Of a DNA stretch of 48,181 nt, positions 351 to 31,493 are shown in pieces. The stretch lies in assembly GCA_014874485.1 (NCBI GenBank), contig JADBJK010000015.1, positions 1 through 48,181 of the forward strand. The letters are read 5' to 3'. The notes beneath the pieces were generated by a model, which did no database searches, was not told the DNA's origin, and worked only from the letters and a program-made list of their open reading frames with translations. The position numbers and the translations under genes were made by a program. This stretch comes from Chloroflexota bacterium (GTDB lineage Bacteria; Chloroflexota; Anaerolineae; DTLA01). How positions within the stretch are numbered: position 1 is the stretch's first letter; the number at the start of each line of letters is the position of its first letter.

Positions 351-3300
351 CTACCGCGAGGGCGAGGGCCTCGTTTCCGTGCGCGGCAGCGCGGCGAACA
401 CCGCATTCAGCGCCACCAGCGTCCGCTCCAGCGTGTCCCGCCAGGCGTCGTCCAGCGCGACCCACACCTGGCCGCGCCCCAGCCGCGCCCTGGGCGGCAG
501 TTCCCGCTTCAGTTCGGCCTCGGGCGCTTCGTACAGCCACCCCGCGCGCACCACGATCTGCTCGGCCTCCTGCCCGATGGTGCGCACGTCGCAGCGCGTC
601 GCCAGCGCCTTGACCCGCATCAGGTACAGCAGGTTCCGCGCCTCTGGCGGCATGGGGCCGAATCGGTCCTCCATCTCCTGTGCCAGGCGGTCCAGGTCTT
701 CCAGCGGCCCCGCGCCCGCGAATCGGCGGTACAACTGCAGGCGCATCGCCTCGTCTGGGATGTACGACTCGGGCAGGTACGCCGCCATGGGCAGGTTCAA
801 CTGCGTGGCCGACTGGAGCGGCCGCACGTACAGCGCCGTCTCGTCCAGCACCCGCGGGGGGCTTTCGCCCTTCAGTTCGCGCACGGCCTGGGCCAGCAGG
901 CGGCAGTACAGGTCAAACCCCACGGCGCTGATGTGCCCGTGCTGGCGCGCGCCGAGCAACTCGCCCGCGCCGCGAATCTCCAAGTCGCGCATGGCGATGC
1001 GGAACCCCGCCCCCAGTTCGCTGGCCTCCATGATGGTGTCCAGGCGCTTGCGGGCGATGGCGCTCAGCGGCTGGTGGCGCGGGTACAGCAGGTACGCGTA
1101 GGCCCGCTGGGTGCTGCGCCCCACGCGCCCGCGCAACTGGTACAACTGCGCCAGGCCGAATCGGTCTGCGCGGTTGATGATGATGGTGTTGGCGTTGGGG
1201 ATGTCCAGCCCGCTCTCTATGATGGACGTGCACACCAGGACGTCCAACTTGCCCGCGGCGAAGTCCAGCATCACCCGCTCCAGGTCGGCCTCGGGCATCT
1301 GGCCGTGCCCCACGCCCACCGTCGCCTCGGGCACCAGGCGCGCCACCCGCTGGGCGACCTGGTGGATGCCCTGCACGCGGTTGTGGACGAAGTACACCTG
1401 GCCGCCGCGGTTCAGTTCGCGCAGGATGGCGCGCCGAATCAGCGCCTCGTCGTACTCGCCGACGTAGGTCTTGATGGGCAGGCGGTCTTCGGGCGGCGTG
1501 TCAATGGTGCTCATGTCGCGCGCGCCCGTCAGCGACATGTACAGCGTGCGCGGGATGGGCGTCGCGGTGAGGGTGAGCACATCCACCTCGCGCCGCTTCT
1601 GCTTCAGCCACTCCTTGTGCGCCACGCCAAACCGCTGCTCCTCGTCCACGATGAGCAAGCCCAGGTCCTTGAACTGCACGTCCTTCTGCAACAGGCGGTG
1701 CGTGCCGATGATGATGTCCACGCGGCCCGTCGCCAGCCGCTCAAGGACTTGCTGCTGCTCCCGCTTGCTGCGGAAGCGCGACAGCATCTCCACCTCCACG
1801 GGGAAGGGCCGCATCCGCTCGCGGAAGGTTTCGTAGTGCTGCTGCGCCAGCACGGTGGTGGGCACCAGCACCGCCACCTGCTTGCCGTCCATCACGGCCT
1901 TGAACGCCGCCCGCAGCGCCACCTCGGTCTTGCCGTAGCCCACGTCGCCACAGATGAGGCGGTCCATGGGGTAGGGCCGCTCCATGTCGGCCTTGACGGC
2001 GCGCACCGCGTTCAGTTGGTCCTCGGTCTCCACGTAGGGGAACGCCGCCTCCAAATCGGCCTGCCACGGCGTGTCGGGCGAGAAGGCGTGCCCCGACACC
2101 ACCTCCCGCGCCGAGTACAGTTCCAGCAACTCCTTGGCGATGTTGGTAACCGCGCGCTTGGCCCTGGCCTTGACCAGCGTCCAGTCGGCGGTTCCCAGGC
2201 GGCTCAACGGCGGCGGCTTGTCCGTGGCGCCCACGTAGCGGCTGAGGCGGTCGGCCTGGTCAATGGGCACGTACAGTTTATCGGCCCCCTGGAAGTCCAC
2301 CTGCAGGTACTCGCGCTCGGCCCCCTCAACGGTCAGGCGCACCAGGCCCCGGAACACGCCGATGCCCTGCTCCACGTGCACCACGTAGTCGCCCGGCTTC
2401 ACGTCGGCGAAGAAGGCTTCGGGGCCGGGTGCGCGGCGCGGGCGCGGTCGGCGAGGCTCGGGCTTGGCCCAGCCGAACAGTTCGGTGTCGGTGAGGAGCA
2501 GCGCCTCGGCGGGGCCATCGGGCAACACCCGCAGCGTCCATCCGCCCTCCAGCATCCCCTGCACCAGCGTAACGGCGGACTCCGGCGGCGCGGACACGTC
2601 CTCACGCAATGCCGCGTCCAGTCGGTACGGCTCCAGCAGCGAGTGCAGGCGGTGGGCCTGGCGCGACACCACGACCACCTTGCACTCGTCGCCCGCCGCT
2701 TCGGCCACGCCGTCCAGCGCCGTGCGCAGTTGCCCGCCGTAGTGCGTCGCCGGGCCGAAGAGCGCGCCCACGGCGTGCGGCTCGTCGGCGTCGCCGGGGG
2801 GCCACCCAAGCCCGATGCGCGCGAACCCGCCCACCTGTGCCCGAATCTCCGCCCAGGTGAAGTAGGGCCGCGCCACGCCGCCGGCGGGCAAGTCGCCGCC
2901 CGCCTCCAACTGCTCCCGCAGGGCCTCGGCCTGCTCCTCGCCTTCCACGGCGGTGGCCTCAATCTCCTGCCAGTCCTCGGCCATCACCAGGGCATCGGGC
3001 GGCAGGTAGTGCAGCAGGCTGGCCGGCGCGGTGTAGGCAAACGGCAGGTAGAACTCTACCCCACGGAATCGCGCGCCCTCGGCCAGGTGGGATAACTCGG
3101 CCTGAATCTCCTCCAGCGCCGCCCCGTGGCAGTTGGAAAAGTCCCACGCCAGGCGCGACGGGGCCAAGCGCGCGGGGTCGGGCAACACCTCGCTGGCCGG
3201 GACCACCCGCACATGCTCCACGCGCTCCAGCGAGCGCTGCGTCGCGGGGTCGTACAGGCGCAGCGAGTCAATCTCGTCGCCCCAGAACTCCAGCCGCGCC

Positions 3301-26847: not shown

Positions 26848-28590
26848 CTACCTCCCGAACTCCCGCGCCAGCAGCCCCATGCTCAGGTGCAGCACCGTCG
26901 GGCGGCCGTGAGGGCACGTGCGCGGGAACTCAGACCGCTCCAACTGCTCCACCAGCGCCCGCATTTCCTCCACGGTCAGCGTCTTGCCCGCCCGCACCGC
27001 GCCGTGGCAGGCCACAACCGCCGTTACCCTGTGGCCCTGCACGAGCGGCGGGGGCTCTTGCCCCAGTTCGTTCAGCGTGTCCCGCAGCACTGTGGCAATG
27101 TCATCCCCCGCGATGGCCGCCGGCACCGCCCGCACCAGGCACGTGTCCTCGCCAAATGGCTCTATCTCAAACCCCAGCGCCGCCAGGTCCCCCAGCGCCT
27201 CCTCCAGCGTGCTCATCTGCAGTGGGGTCAGTTCCACCGGCAGGGGCTGGAGCAACTGCTGCACGGCCACCTGGGCGGCGGCCTGCTGGGCCATGAGTTG
27301 ATCGTACATCACCCGCTCGTGGGCCGCGTGCTGGTCAATCAGGTACAGGCCGTCGGGGCCTTCGGCGATGATGTACATCTGCGCCAACTGGCCCAGCACG
27401 CGCAGCGGCGGAAGTCTGCGGGCGGCGGGATCGGGCCGCTCGGGCACCTGGAACACCGGCGTGCGGACGGCCTCCGTGTCGCCTGTGCGCTGGGCCTCCA
27501 GCCCCAACTGGCTCAGCGTGCGGAACCGCTCCGTGTCGGCCTGGGCCTGTGTCGGCTGCGGCATGTGCATCTCGGGCACAGGGGCGTGGGCCACCAGCAC
27601 GCGGCGCACCGCCCGCTGGGTCTCCGAGAACACCAGCGATGGATTGCGGAACCGGACCTCGCTCTTGGCAGGGTGGACGTTCACATCCACCTCGGCGGGG
27701 TCCATTTCCAGCAGGATGACGGCCACGGGGAATCGGCCCTCGGGCAGCATGGTGTGGTACGCCTGGATGACCGCGTAGGCCAGCGAGCGATCTTGCACCC
27801 AGCGTCGGTTGACGAACAGCATCAGCCCGTCGCGGTCCGAGCGGGTCAGCGACGGCTCGCTTACGTAGCCGCGCACGCGGACTTTGGCGTCGGGCGACAG
27901 GCTCGCGTCCTCGGCGGGGTCCACCGGCAGCAAGCGTGCCGCGGTGTCCGCCCCGAAGACCTTGGCCAGCACGTCCAGCAGCCTGCCGCTACCGGGCGAC
28001 TGGAACGCAAGCCGCCCATCGCGCACCAGCGAGAAGTGCACGTCCGGAAACGCGATGGCGTATCGCATGACCACGTTGGCGATGTGCGCCGACTCGGTGG
28101 CGTCGGCCTTGAGGAACTTGAGGCGCGCGGGGACGTTGTAGAACAGGTTCTCCACGGTTACCGTTGTCCCGCGGGGGCTGGCGCGGCCCTCGCGTTGCAC
28201 GACCTGCCCACCCTCCACGCGCAGGAATGTGCCCACCTCGTCCTCCGCCGCCCGTGTCAGCAGCGATACGCGCGCCACCGCCGCGATGCTGGCCAGCGCC
28301 TCGCCGCGGAACCCCAGCGTGCGGATCGCGGCCAGGTCCTCCACCGACGCGATCTTGCTGGTGGCGTGGCGGGCGAAGGCCAGTTCAGCCTCGCGGGCAG
28401 GGATGCCGCTGCCGTTGTCGGCAACGCGGATGAGCCGACGGCCGCCCTCGCGGGTCTCAATCTGGATGTCGGTAGCCCCCGCATCCAGCGCGTTCTCCAC
28501 CAGTTCCTTGACCACAGACGCGGGGCGTTCCACCACCTCTCCGGCGGCGATCTTGTTGGCGATTTCGGGCGGCAACAGACGTATGGGCAT
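26848..28590 (-). CDS. mutL: DNA mismatch repair protein MutL
   Basis: A 580-residue mismatch-repair ATPase. The GHKL N-terminus is complete: IAAGEVVERPASVVKELVEN, DAGATDI, DNGSGIP and GFRGEALASI. The C-terminal half carries the endonuclease signature DQHAAHERVMYD, in which the usual last Glu of DQHA(x)2E(x)4E is Asp, and CPHGRP near the end, so it is of the nicking type. The ATG at 28590 gives MPIRLLPPEIANKIAAGEV; the ATG nine codons upstream is less likely. No mutS is in this window. A TACAAT box on the minus strand at 28690-28695 may be its -10. Confidence 0.96.
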   Translation of the reverse strand: MPIRLLPPEIANKIAAGEVVERPASVVKELVENALDAGATDIQIETREGGRRLIRVADNGSGIPAREAELAFARHATSKIASVEDLAAIRTLGFRGEALASIAAVARVSLLTRAAEDEVGTFLRVEGGQVVQREGRASPRGTTVTVENLFYNVPARLKFLKADATESAHIANVVMRYAIAFPDVHFSLVRDGRLAFQSPGSGRLLDVLAKVFGADTAARLLPVDPAEDASLSPDAKVRVRGYVSEPSLTRSDRDGLMLFVNRRWVQDRSLAYAVIQAYHTMLPEGRFPVAVILLEMDPAEVDVNVHPAKSEVRFRNPSLVFSETQRAVRRVLVAHAPVPEMHMPQPTQAQADTERFRTLSQLGLEAQRTGDTEAVRTPVFQVPERPDPAARRLPPLRVLGQLAQMYIIAEGPDGLYLIDQHAAHERVMYDQLMAQQAAAQVAVQQLLQPLPVELTPLQMSTLEEALGDLAALGFEIEPFGEDTCLVRAVPAAIAGDDIATVLRDTLNELGQEPPPLVQGHRVTAVVACHGAVRAGKTLTVEEMRALVEQLERSEFPRTCPHGRPTVLHLSMGLLAREFGR

Positions 28591-28842
28591 GGCTTCGTCC
28601 TTCGGGATGTCTTTCACCGCGGGGCACGCGGAGAGCGCAGGGGAGACCCGACCCTCACGCTGGTCTCTGCGTCCGTGGCGGTGGATTTCATTGTAGCACA
28701 GGCGGCGGCAGAGGCAAAGGCGACGGCGCGAGAAGCATTTGCGAGCGTTCGCCTCGCCACAGGGAGCGCGGAGAGCGCGGTCTTGGCACGCTCCGCGGTG
28801 AGACCCCGTGCGACACGCATCGGCGAACCTGCTGCGCCACGT
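28591..28842. other. Divergent intergenic region upstream of mutL
   Basis: No supportable gene. It contains GCACGCGGAGAGCGCAG-type debris near 28623 and 28770 and a candidate minus-strand TACAAT (28690-28695) for mutL. The plus-strand promoter of the next small gene follows directly. Confidence 0.5.
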
Positions 28843-28896: not shown

Positions 28897-29118
28897 ATGC
28901 TGAGGAATTGGCGCATGGTGCAGGAATTTGAAGACGCCCTGCTGCGGAGCGAGCCGCCCGACTACTTCCGCAATCTGCGAATCGTTGAGGCGCTCCTCGC
29001 GGAGGCGCGGGCGCTGGGTGTGCTGCCTCTCCGCGATCCGCTGGACGGGATTGACGTGGACATCCGCGTGGCGGAGGTGATGCGTGTTCTCGGGGGCGAT
29101 TCATGGCGCGATTCATGA
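28897..29118 (+). CDS. Small uncharacterised protein, 3' end altered by a repeat
   Basis: A 73-residue protein, not recognised: MLRNWRMVQEFEDALLRSEP, then DYFRNLRIVEALLAEARALG and IDVDIRVAEVMRVLGGDSW. It is acidic and mostly helical. It has a near-consensus promoter (28843-28871) and GGAGG upstream, so it is probably expressed. The stop codon lies in GATTCATGAAT (29110-29120), which matches the centre of the 28-38 bp palindromes found just downstream. The original C-terminus was therefore probably replaced by repeat insertion. A decayed copy of its middle (AATCCGCGGATCGTTGAGG, 29976) lies 1 kb downstream. Confidence 0.6.
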   Translation: MLRNWRMVQEFEDALLRSEPPDYFRNLRIVEALLAEARALGVLPLRDPLDGIDVDIRVAEVMRVLGGDSWRDS

Positions 29119-29144
29119 ATCTCCCCTACAGGATACAGGCACAC

Positions 29145-29235
29145 ATGCGCAAATACGACCTCATCGTGATCGGAACAGGCGCTGGCATGAACGTGGCGGC
29201 CAATGCCGCGGCCCACGGCATGCGCGTCGTGGAGC
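29145..29235 (+). pseudogene. Truncated copy of the 5' end of the lpd-like gene
   Basis: It begins ATGCGCAAATACGACCTCAT and follows the first 96 bases of the gene at 30099 with few changes: GCTGGC for GCCGGC, AATGCC for AACGCC, and loss of six bases in CGCGTCGCCGTCGTG. It breaks off at GTGGAGC and runs into the palindrome at 29240. Only the start of the FAD-binding fold remains, so it is not functional. Confidence 0.85.
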
Positions 29236-29239
29236 GAAC

Positions 29240-29277
29240 AACCCGTAGGGGCAATTCATGAATTGCCCCTACGGGTT
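29240..29277. repeat. 38-bp perfect palindrome (family P2), copy 1
   Basis: Perfectly self-complementary, centred on ATTCATGAAT with arms AACCCGTAGGGGCAATTCA. It lies directly upstream of the RAYT transposase gene. Other copies: 29861-29888, 30044-30075 and a variant at 46269-46290. Confidence 0.9.
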
Positions 29278-29295
29278 GTAGGCAGGACAGATGTC

Positions 29296-29850
29296 ATGAA
29301 GTACGATCCAGACAAGCACCATCGCCGTTCCATCCGCCTCAAGGGGTACGACTACTCGCAGGGCGGTGCGTACGCGATCACCGTCTGCATACGTAACCGA
29401 GAGTGTATCCTGGGTGAGGTGGTGGGAGACCGCGTAGCCTTATCCGCATTGGGGACGAAAGCCCAAGAGCTCTGGCTAGCGATTCCCGGACGGTTTGAGA
29501 ACGTGTTGCTGGATGAATTCATCGTGATGCCCAATCACGTGCACGGTATCATCGTTATCCAAGGAGAGGTCAAGACAATGGTTGAGCCTCCCGAACCTGC
29601 TCTAGATGCGCCGATTTCCCGCGAGCAACGGCGACAGATGCTGATCCCAAAGATTGTCGGGTATTTCAAGATGAATTCCGCAAAATCTATCAACCTCCTG
29701 CGGAATACGCCAGGGGTTCCTGTGTGGCAACGCAACTACTACGAGCGGGTCATCCGCACGGAGGAAGAATGGAATATCCTGCGTCAATACATTGCTGGGA
29801 ATCCTCAGCGTTGGCACGAGGACGAGGAGAACCCTTCTGTCTTCCGTTGA
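29296..29850 (+). mobile_element. REP-associated Y1 transposase (RAYT) gene
   Basis: A 184-residue TnpA_REP-type HUH transposase of the IS200/IS605 superfamily, related to enzymes that move short palindromic REP sequences as single strands. It has RRSIRLKGYDYSQGGAYAIT at the start, the HUH motif in MPNHVHGIIVI (about residue 80), and a distal Tyr in NYYERVIRTEEEWNILRQYI as the nucleophile candidate, followed by NPQRW. The ATG at 29296 gives the family start MKYDPDKHHRRSIRLKGYDY. The gene is intact and lies between palindromes at 29240-29277 and 29861-29888 that share the same core, its likely substrates. Confidence 0.92.
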
Positions 29851-29860
29851 CTCGCGAATA

Positions 29861-29888
29861 GTAGGGGCAATTCATGAATTGCCCCTAC
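29861..29888. repeat. 28-bp perfect palindrome (family P2), copy 2
   Basis: GTAGGGGCAATTCA followed by its complement, 11 bases after the transposase stop codon. It is identical in core to copies 1 and 3. Confidence 0.9.
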
Positions 29889-30043
29889 GGACCAACGCCG
29901 CAAGGAGGCTGACATGCGCAAATACGACCTCATCGTGGGCCACGTCGCATGGGGATGAAGGAGGCTCATTTTTGCAATCCGCGGATCGTTGAGGCGCTCC
30001 TCGCGGAGGGATTGACGCGGACATCCAAATGCATGTGAGGATC
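29889..30043 (+). pseudogene. Scrambled fragments of lpd 5' end and of the small gene
   Basis: Bases 29861-29937 repeat 30046-30122 (period 185), including the ribosome site CAAGGAGGCTGAC and the first 24 bases of the lpd-like reading frame. After GTGGGCCACGTCGCATGGGG comes a stretch at about 29974-30035 that matches the interior of the small gene at 28897, with one internal deletion (CTCGCGGAG joined to GGATTGACG). Neither fragment encodes a protein. Confidence 0.8.
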
Positions 30044-30075
30044 CCGTAGGGGCAATTCATGAATTGCCCCTACGG
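30044..30075. repeat. 32-bp perfect palindrome (family P2), copy 3
   Basis: CCGTAGGGGCAATTCA and complement, 23 bases upstream of the lpd-like start codon and just before its AAGGAGG ribosome site. It could fold in the mRNA leader and affect translation. Confidence 0.9.
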
Positions 30076-30098
30076 ACCAATGCTGCAAGGAGGCTGAC

Positions 30099-31493
30099 AT
30101 GCGCAAATACGACCTCATCGTGATCGGAACAGGCGCCGGCATGAACGTGGCGGCCAACGCCGCGGCCCACGGCCTGCGCGTCGCCGTCGTGGAGCACGGC
30201 CCCCTGGGCGGCACGTGCCTCAATAACGGGTGCATCCCCACCAAAATCCTGCTCTACCCCGCCGATGTCATCCGCGCCCTGGAAGACGCCGCGGACATCG
30301 GCGTTCACGGCAGCGTCTCCAGGGTGGATTTCGGCCTCATCATGCAGCGGGTGCACGCCTACGTGGACGAGGGGCGCGAGGAGATGGAGCGCGCCCTGGC
30401 CCATTCCAAGAACCCCCAGATGTACCGCGACACCGGCGAGTTCATCGGCGACTACACGCTCCGCGTCGGTAAGGAGACCATCACCGCGCCCAAGATTCTC
30501 ATCGCGTCGGGCGCGAGGCCCCTGGTGCCGCCGGTGGACGGCCTGCGCGAGACCGGCTACCTGGACAACGTGTCCGTGCTGAGCCTGCGCGAGCCGCCCG
30601 AGAGTCTCATCATCATGGGCGGCGGGTACATCGCCTGCGAGTACGGCCATTTCTTCTCGGCGGTGGGAACGAAGGTTACCATCCTGGGACGCAACCCGCG
30701 CCTGCTCAAGGAAGAGGAGCCGGAGATTTCGGCCATCGTCAAGCGCCGCTTCTCCAAGTACGCCGAGATTCACACCAACTTTGAGGTCGTCCGGGTGGGC
30801 AGGGCCGACGGCAAGAAGGTGGTAACCGCCCGCGACCGGAGCGACGGCCAGACCTACGACTTCGTGGCCGACGAGATTCTGCTGGCCGTGGGGCGGCAGT
30901 CCAACGCCGACCTGCTGAAGCCGGAGAAGACCGGCGTCCAGACCGACAAGGACGGCTGGGTCGTGGTCAACGAGTACCTGGAGACGACGAAGCCCAACAT
31001 CTGGGCGCTTGGCGACGCCATCGGCAAGCACATGTTCCGCCACACGGCGAACTACGAGTCCGAGGCCGTCTGGCACTCCATCGCCACCGGGCACCGCCAC
31101 CCGGTGGATTTCCACGCGGTCCCGCACGCGGTCTTCGGCTACCCACAAGTGGGGTCGGTGGGCATGACCGAGGCCGAGGCGCTGGCCGCGGGCCGCAAGA
31201 TTCTGGTGGGCCGCGCCCGCTACACCGACGTAACGAAGGGCTACGCCATGGGCGAGGAAGACAGCCTGGTGAAGGTCGTGGTGGAGCAGGAGACAGGCAA
31301 GATTCTGGGATGCCACATCGTGGGCACGGACGCGGCCATCCTGGTACAGCAGATCGTGTACCTGATGAACGCCGGCGACCAGTCGTACACACCCCTGGCC
31401 GACTCGCAGGTCATTCACCCGGCGCTCAGCGAGGCGGTCGTGGCGGCGTTTGCGCGGCTGGCCCCGCCCGAGCACGAGCACCACGCGGACTGA
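30099..31493 (+). CDS. Dihydrolipoamide dehydrogenase-like flavoprotein
   Basis: A 464-residue FAD/NAD(P) disulfide oxidoreductase. It has the FAD fold (YDLIVIGTGAGMNVAANAAA) and redox-active cysteines in GGTCLNNGCIPTKIL (about residues 40 and 45). The NAD-binding fold is IIMGGGYIACEYGHFF near 170, GRQSNADLLKPE and ALGDAIG complete the FAD site, and the dimer-interface HPALSEAV supplies the catalytic His-Glu pair. Nearest families are Lpd, mycothione reductase and mercuric reductase. No 2-oxo-acid dehydrogenase gene is adjacent, so the physiological disulfide is unknown. AAGGAGG precedes the ATG. Its 5' end has been copied twice upstream. Confidence 0.88.
   Translation: MRKYDLIVIGTGAGMNVAANAAAHGLRVAVVEHGPLGGTCLNNGCIPTKILLYPADVIRALEDAADIGVHGSVSRVDFGLIMQRVHAYVDEGREEMERALAHSKNPQMYRDTGEFIGDYTLRVGKETITAPKILIASGARPLVPPVDGLRETGYLDNVSVLSLREPPESLIIMGGGYIACEYGHFFSAVGTKVTILGRNPRLLKEEEPEISAIVKRRFSKYAEIHTNFEVVRVGRADGKKVVTARDRSDGQTYDFVADEILLAVGRQSNADLLKPEKTGVQTDKDGWVVVNEYLETTKPNIWALGDAIGKHMFRHTANYESEAVWHSIATGHRHPVDFHAVPHAVFGYPQVGSVGMTEAEALAAGRKILVGRARYTDVTKGYAMGEEDSLVKVVVEQETGKILGCHIVGTDAAILVQQIVYLMNAGDQSYTPLADSQVIHPALSEAVVAAFARLAPPEHEHHAD

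Follow-up and report, generated by a model that had tools for sequence, protein, structure and literature searches.

A recent, lineage-specific REP-associated tyrosine transposase unit among partial copies of neighboring host genes in a Chloroflexota bacterium, and an in-frame palindrome within related transposase genes

Here we analyze a stretch of 48,181 nucleotides (nt; hereafter the window) from a Chloroflexota bacterium (contig JADBJK010000015.1 of assembly GCA_014874485.1), in which the gene for a REP-associated tyrosine transposase (RAYT; REP, repetitive extragenic palindrome) lies between a small gene, S, and an lpd-like gene for a pyridine nucleotide-disulphide oxidoreductase, amid partial copies of both. 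S (28897..29118, plus strand) encodes 73 amino acids, is single copy in congeners G001 and G002, and gave no match in a Pfam search; upstream of it lies a mutL-like gene (26848..28617, minus strand; Pfam MutL_C and DNA_mis_repair). The 3' end of S overlaps a degenerate palindrome, P0 (29099..29131; 67% to the P1 reference copy), which is followed by copy 1 of the lpd 5' end (29145..29235, plus strand; 91 nt) and by P1, a perfect palindrome of 42 nt (29238..29279). The RAYT gene itself (29296..29850, plus strand) is an open reading frame (ORF) of 184 amino acids, and beyond it stand P2, a perfect palindrome of 28 nt (29861..29888), and copy 2, which comprises the lpd leader and the first 24 nt of lpd (29889..29937, plus strand). 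A 36-nt junction sequence (29938..29973), for which a genome search gave only short chance-level matches, separates copy 2 from S' (29974..30026, plus strand), a piece of the inner part of S that has lost about 43 nt internally. Finally, P3, a perfect palindrome of 32 nt (30044..30075), precedes the leader of the intact lpd-like gene (30099..31493, plus strand). The perfect palindromes on either side of the RAYT gene are GTAGGGGCAATTCATGAATTGCCCCTAC palindromes.

Three partial copies of the S/palindrome/lpd-start junction are thereby arranged around the RAYT gene. The lpd start recurs at 29137-29229 and 30091-30183 (93 nt, 95% identity), the palindrome-leader-lpd segment at 29861-29937 and 30046-30122 (77 nt, 97%, spacing 185), and the interior of S at 28970-29005 and 29974-30009 (36 nt, 94%), with a short match to 30026 after the deletion. 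A preliminary description of this DNA had reported the intact RAYT between perfect palindromes, the 91-base copy of the lpd 5' end, and the deleted copy of the small gene's interior, and all three are found at the locus. Its statement that the second pair of segments is equal, with a period of 185, holds for the spacing and is slightly too strong for the identity, and P0 adds a fourth, degenerate palindrome to that account.

We take the transposase to be a RAYT. The HVH (residues 81-83) and WQRNYY motifs are conserved, and H81, H83, and Y148 are invariant across 25 aligned sequences, the window RAYT included. An AlphaFold2 model (25 sequences; predicted local distance difference test 80.4, predicted template modeling [TM] score 0.76) ranks 4er8, the complex of a RAYT with a REP hairpin, first in a Foldseek comparison (E 9.2e-07; TM 0.49/0.55), ahead of IS200/IS605 transposases. 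The NCBIfam model NF047646 (REP_Tyr_transpos) matches at E 5.4e-13 and 49.1 bits, under its curated cut-off of 80, a threshold that serves annotation and does not define the family; a Pfam search gave no match at 0.001, and a sequence search of solved structures gave none at E up to 1. No near relative is present in congeners, the best reaching 34-56% identity over matched stretches, and L094, its closest relative in the search of the class, shows bracketing like that of the window gene, with a TTCATGAA-centered palindrome upstream.

Both the RAYT and the duplications are recent features particular to the window's lineage. A search for lpd over 41 related genomes matched six of them at E 1e-80, and the genus members among these, besides the window's own genome, are G001 and G002. 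In G002 the site reads S, a short remnant with half a palindrome, and lpd (97% protein identity); in G001 it reads S, a DUF6036/AbiEii-like nucleotidyltransferase gene (L024, about 1950-2490, minus strand), and lpd (91%). Neither genome holds a RAYT or a second copy of S or lpd at the site, and the window's arrangement is therefore derived. This comparison with relatives that lack the transposase, as proposed in the preliminary description, also found the same arrangement without a transposase in neither congener. Between copy 1 and lpd there are 3 differences over 91 sites, plus a 6-nt deletion, versus 8 of 97 sites between lpd and its G002 counterpart, which indicates that the duplication is recent. 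The nucleotidyltransferase gene is lost in the window's genome and reduced in G002; G002 thus shares the loss of most of this gene, but not the RAYT or the duplications.

The bracketing of the RAYT by palindromes is the known layout of the REPtron, a RAYT gene flanked by inverted REP palindromes (PMC2817692, PMC3733652, PMC6006769). The window shares with it a RAYT with HUH motif and catalytic tyrosine, and GTAG-headed palindromes that are close on both sides and also dispersed in the genome: P1 lies 16 nt upstream of the start codon, P2 lies 10 nt downstream of the stop codon, and the exact 28-mer palindrome has 13 copies in the 3.74-Mb genome (backward-read control, 0). A looser pattern with at most two mismatches matches 138 times versus 0 for its control, and with both controls at zero the palindrome is not a product of chance. 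The window unit differs from the REPtron, whose REPs stand in opposite orientation with the GTAG head next to the hairpin, in that its palindromes, although they have GTAG at both ends, are perfect and lack orientation, the GTAG head being paired with CTAC, in that the unit is absent from the site in congeners, and in that copies of host genes surround it. Published descriptions have RAYTs passed on vertically (PMC8049555) and REPtrons that do not move as a unit (PMC6006769). The window RAYT also shares its fold and catalytic design with IS200/IS605 single-strand transposons, although its end palindromes, unlike theirs, belong to a dispersed family. Those transposons are said not to produce larger target duplications (PMC2817692), whereas host copies straddle the window unit, though possibly not from insertion itself.

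We propose, at a probability of roughly 0.55, that a REPtron (the RAYT gene with its cognate palindromes) arrived between S and lpd after the lineage split from the nearest sequenced congener, and that the S/palindrome/lpd-start junction was partly copied twice through cutting or nicking of a palindrome hairpin and strand switching. The process would start when a palindrome, extruded as a single-strand hairpin, is broken or nicked; such a hairpin is the type of substrate cut by this enzyme class, and RAYTs cut single-strand REP hairpins (PMC8266576). Strand switching among near-identical palindromes would come next, each switch copying a few dozen to a few hundred adjoining bases. Such copying would yield both the 266-nt upstream copy (part of S, P0, and 91 nt of lpd) and the 79-nt copy right after the RAYT (P2, leader, and 24 nt of lpd), with S', P3, and the intact lpd retained as the working copy; lpd would be intact because only outcomes that keep one whole copy survive. 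Copies 2 and 3 of the palindrome-leader-lpd segment are 97% alike and the leader of copy 1 is more decayed, which implies at least two copying steps, and a snapshot of a single event would leave the third copy (29889-29937) unexplained. In the simplest outline, the REPtron would lie inside a partial direct duplication (left copy 266 nt, right copy 222 nt as cut for comparison), and its right-hand palindrome would already have borne the leader-lpd stub. We infer that RAYT cutting, rather than replication stalling at a palindrome, may have started these events.

Alternatively, the copies could stem from ordinary slippage in replication, or from unequal exchange between the perfect palindromes, with the RAYT a bystander that arrived separately or that lands on palindromes; we consider this a serious possibility, short of an even chance. 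Deletion and duplication at palindromes require no dedicated enzyme. Several results weigh against our proposal, and the first two of them speak for slippage. Direct repeats occur at 25 of 39 palindrome loci of the window's genome (21 GGGGC-type, window included, and 18 GGGAC-type; palindromes masked) versus 4 of 20 control loci; 8 of the 20 controls themselves hold a palindrome-like site. L042 carries a palindrome-bearing local tandem duplication with no RAYT match there. Next, the inspected palindromes outside the exact GGGGC set are mostly of a GGGAC form that sits at a fixed point of another dispersed repeat. L096, which had appeared to be a close parallel to the window, was rejected as a rearranged hsdS-RAYT-hsdR operon with a RAYT at the same place in congeners G137 and G207. 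Finally, the excess of RAYT-straddling duplications over in-flank controls, detailed below, is modest. The preliminary description's view of a RAYT caught moving or duplicating host DNA thus stands for the RAYT, its bracketing, and the lineage-specific change, and falls short on the RAYT as agent of the copying, since palindrome loci without a RAYT are also rich in repeats. On the other side, slippage sits poorly with the many palindrome loci that copy a dispersed repeat rather than coding genes, and with L120, where the copies of a gene end flank the insert one per side and a congener has neither insert nor copy.

The nature of the palindrome family bears on how these counts are read. The core GGRCARTTCATGAAYTGYCC occurs 127 times in the window's genome, 4 times in G002, and 0 times in G001; it was found in 10 of 396 class genomes, with at most nine in each of the other 393. 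The idea that the 127 prove a burst driven by the window RAYT was given up because, in the loci inspected, the GGGAC form rides on the dispersed repeat, and its constant place there means that 127 overstates the number of independent insertions. Likewise, many of the repeats at palindrome loci are the dispersed repeat or minisatellites, and we therefore rejected the notion that duplications beside palindromes are generally copies of host genes. The GGGAC palindrome, which mostly occupies this one point, and the dispersed repeat (GTCATTGCGAG..., GTCATTGCGAGGGCGC...) form a composite element (L054 and L056-L073, in G000), and long tandem arrays adjoin several palindromes in that genome (L002, L041, L050).

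Direct repeats straddle the RAYT at 6 of 79 loci and, with protein-level matches included, at 16 of 115; for comparison, 1 of 114 mismatched pairs showed them, as did 1 of 20 loci without a RAYT. Measured against in-flank controls, which include repeats inside proteins, the counts are 7/75 versus 4/150 at similar distance in 450-nt windows, 6/75 versus 4/150 in 320-nt windows, 6/63 versus 6/126 in a second set, and 23/156 versus 24/311 under looser settings. Single cases such as L120 are more telling than these pooled counts. There, the final 78-88 nt of a gene resembling uroporphyrinogen decarboxylase recur beyond the RAYT at 97%, and its congener G034 has a single copy of the gene end and no insert. 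Copies of the ends of restriction-modification genes across the RAYT are also present at L256 (hsdR-like start), L198 (hsdR-like end), L270 (methylase-like end), L267, L271, and L277. We take these genes to be hsdR, hsdS, and methylase from readings of their translations against motifs familiar to us, the comparison itself showing only that the loci match each other. As a separate observation, RAYTs often lie within apparent type I restriction-modification operons (L102, L191, L198, L256, L267, L271, L277, L288, L306, L307, and others); among the 180 RAYT loci whose two flanks each reach 300 nt or more, 18 match queries resembling hsdR, hsdS, or methylase genes, whereas 0 of 57 G000 loci do, and the hsdS-RAYT-hsdR order is common to the congeners of L096.

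It is also conceivable, though in our judgment improbable, that REPtron insertion itself creates a long target duplication of tens to hundreds of bases, unlike other single-strand (Y1) transposases. The window and L120, both with empty sites in congeners, and the gene-end copies across the RAYT listed above are what such insertion would leave. Only a minority of RAYT loci show copies, however, L096 turned out otherwise, the window's third copy needs a further event, and copy lengths range from about 22 to 266 nt. An assembly artefact is very improbable: the genome is metagenome-type and fragmented (122 contigs), and assemblers fail at repeats, but the copies differ mutually by about 3-6%, unlike collapsed or looped repeats, the site is deep within a 122,758-base contig, and a second assembly shows a comparable layout (L120).

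More surprising than the host copies in the window is a palindrome inside RAYT genes. Among 192 distinct RAYT genes from many phyla, 109 carry an in-frame palindrome that starts at window residues 80-120, and six further hairpins lie elsewhere in the genes. The set combines 7 genus loci, 68 class loci (the best-scoring places of the class search outside the genus), 40 hand-picked lower-scoring loci, and 80 loci from named genomes, minus short or repeated proteins; hairpins required arms of at least 11 after a one-mismatch penalty and a loop of at most 8, such that weaker palindromes are missed. The palindrome (GTAGGGGC..GCCCCTAC) falls at a hinge that joins the HUH strand to the tyrosine segment in L096, L097, L099-L102, L114, L225, L226, L233, L243, and others. 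In predicted structures the hinge is a low-confidence loop (residues 95-103 of the window protein; 92-107 and 109-115 of L225). The window RAYT has no hinge palindrome, and its two nearest neighbors on a quick tree of the 192 RAYTs, L225 and L226, each have one, with cores (CAATTCGTGAATTG and CAATTCATGAATTG) that are the same as the window core or one base off. Elsewhere, the RAYT of contig C99 (L014:1054-1812) features a run of GDHK repeats at the same hinge position; it is preceded by a hairpin, GCGTTATGATACTTTTTG.., that differs from the window's palindrome and is common to G002 (L029).

In-gene palindromes occur at 40 of the 68 class loci, versus any hairpin in 9 of 1360 codon-shuffled versions, and at 53 of the 80 loci from named genomes of many phyla, versus 6 of 800; in two of these 53 (L248, L269) the hairpin lies elsewhere, near residues 46-60. 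Hairpin density in the named set is 1.15 per kb in RAYT ORFs versus 0.10 per kb in flanking DNA at distances above 300 nt. The hinge hairpins are of the GGGG..CCCC type in 102 of 110 cases, with 64 different 14-nt centers. For genes that carry palindromes at the hinge as well as in a flank, the two cores match to within 10% in 47 of 59 pairs (44 genes), versus a mean of 4.5 and a maximum of 10 agreeing pairs in 200 partner shuffles, which treat related genes as independent. Parsimony on the RAYT tree, itself a quick one in which few branches are firm (30 of 189 starred), gives 40 changes of the trait, at least 10 of them forced by firm branches, versus 62 for shuffled labels; the hinge palindrome thus appears and disappears, yet is inherited in part.

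In a genome where one palindrome is abundant, the hinge and the flanks could be drawing on a single pool. In G112, the single genome match to GTAGGGGCN10-15GCCCCTAC is the hinge palindrome, which speaks against simple overflow from an abundant repeat. It is a fair alternative that the loop is permissive and tolerates insertion. Rickettsia palindromic elements are short palindromes that lie in frame inside coding genes, and the hinge palindromes resemble them in these respects; unlike the Rickettsia elements, they occupy one hinge of the very class of enzymes whose members act on such palindromes, and they match the gene's own flanking palindromes. We tentatively suggest, as an idea we hold to be doubtful, that a multi-phylum group of RAYTs carries its own recognition palindrome at the hinge, in frame, matched to the flanks, and acting in cis, for instance by offering a place within the gene for cutting or anchoring that couples the enzyme to its substrate, or by serving as a switch through which the unit limits itself, and that such REPtrons may be truly mobile, copying neighboring gene ends as in the window. 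The searched literature, with most subscription papers and preprints out of reach and the accessible parts of PMC3733652, PMC6006769, PMC2817692, PMC3686654, PMC8266576, and PMC8049555 included, yielded no report of a REP in the middle of a RAYT gene or of host-gene copies around a RAYT; PMC3733652 does mention REPs located within other genes, as well as repeats in the flanks that overlap the ends of RAYT genes.

Overall, the REPtron in the window is lineage-specific, and the host copies around it, untidy as they are, are real. The usual description of RAYTs is one of domesticated single-copy genes. The recent arrival of a RAYT with sequenced RAYT-less relatives, together with in-gene palindromes that report the probable substrate, makes the pairing of RAYT with REP and the mobility of REPtrons testable in laboratory strains.

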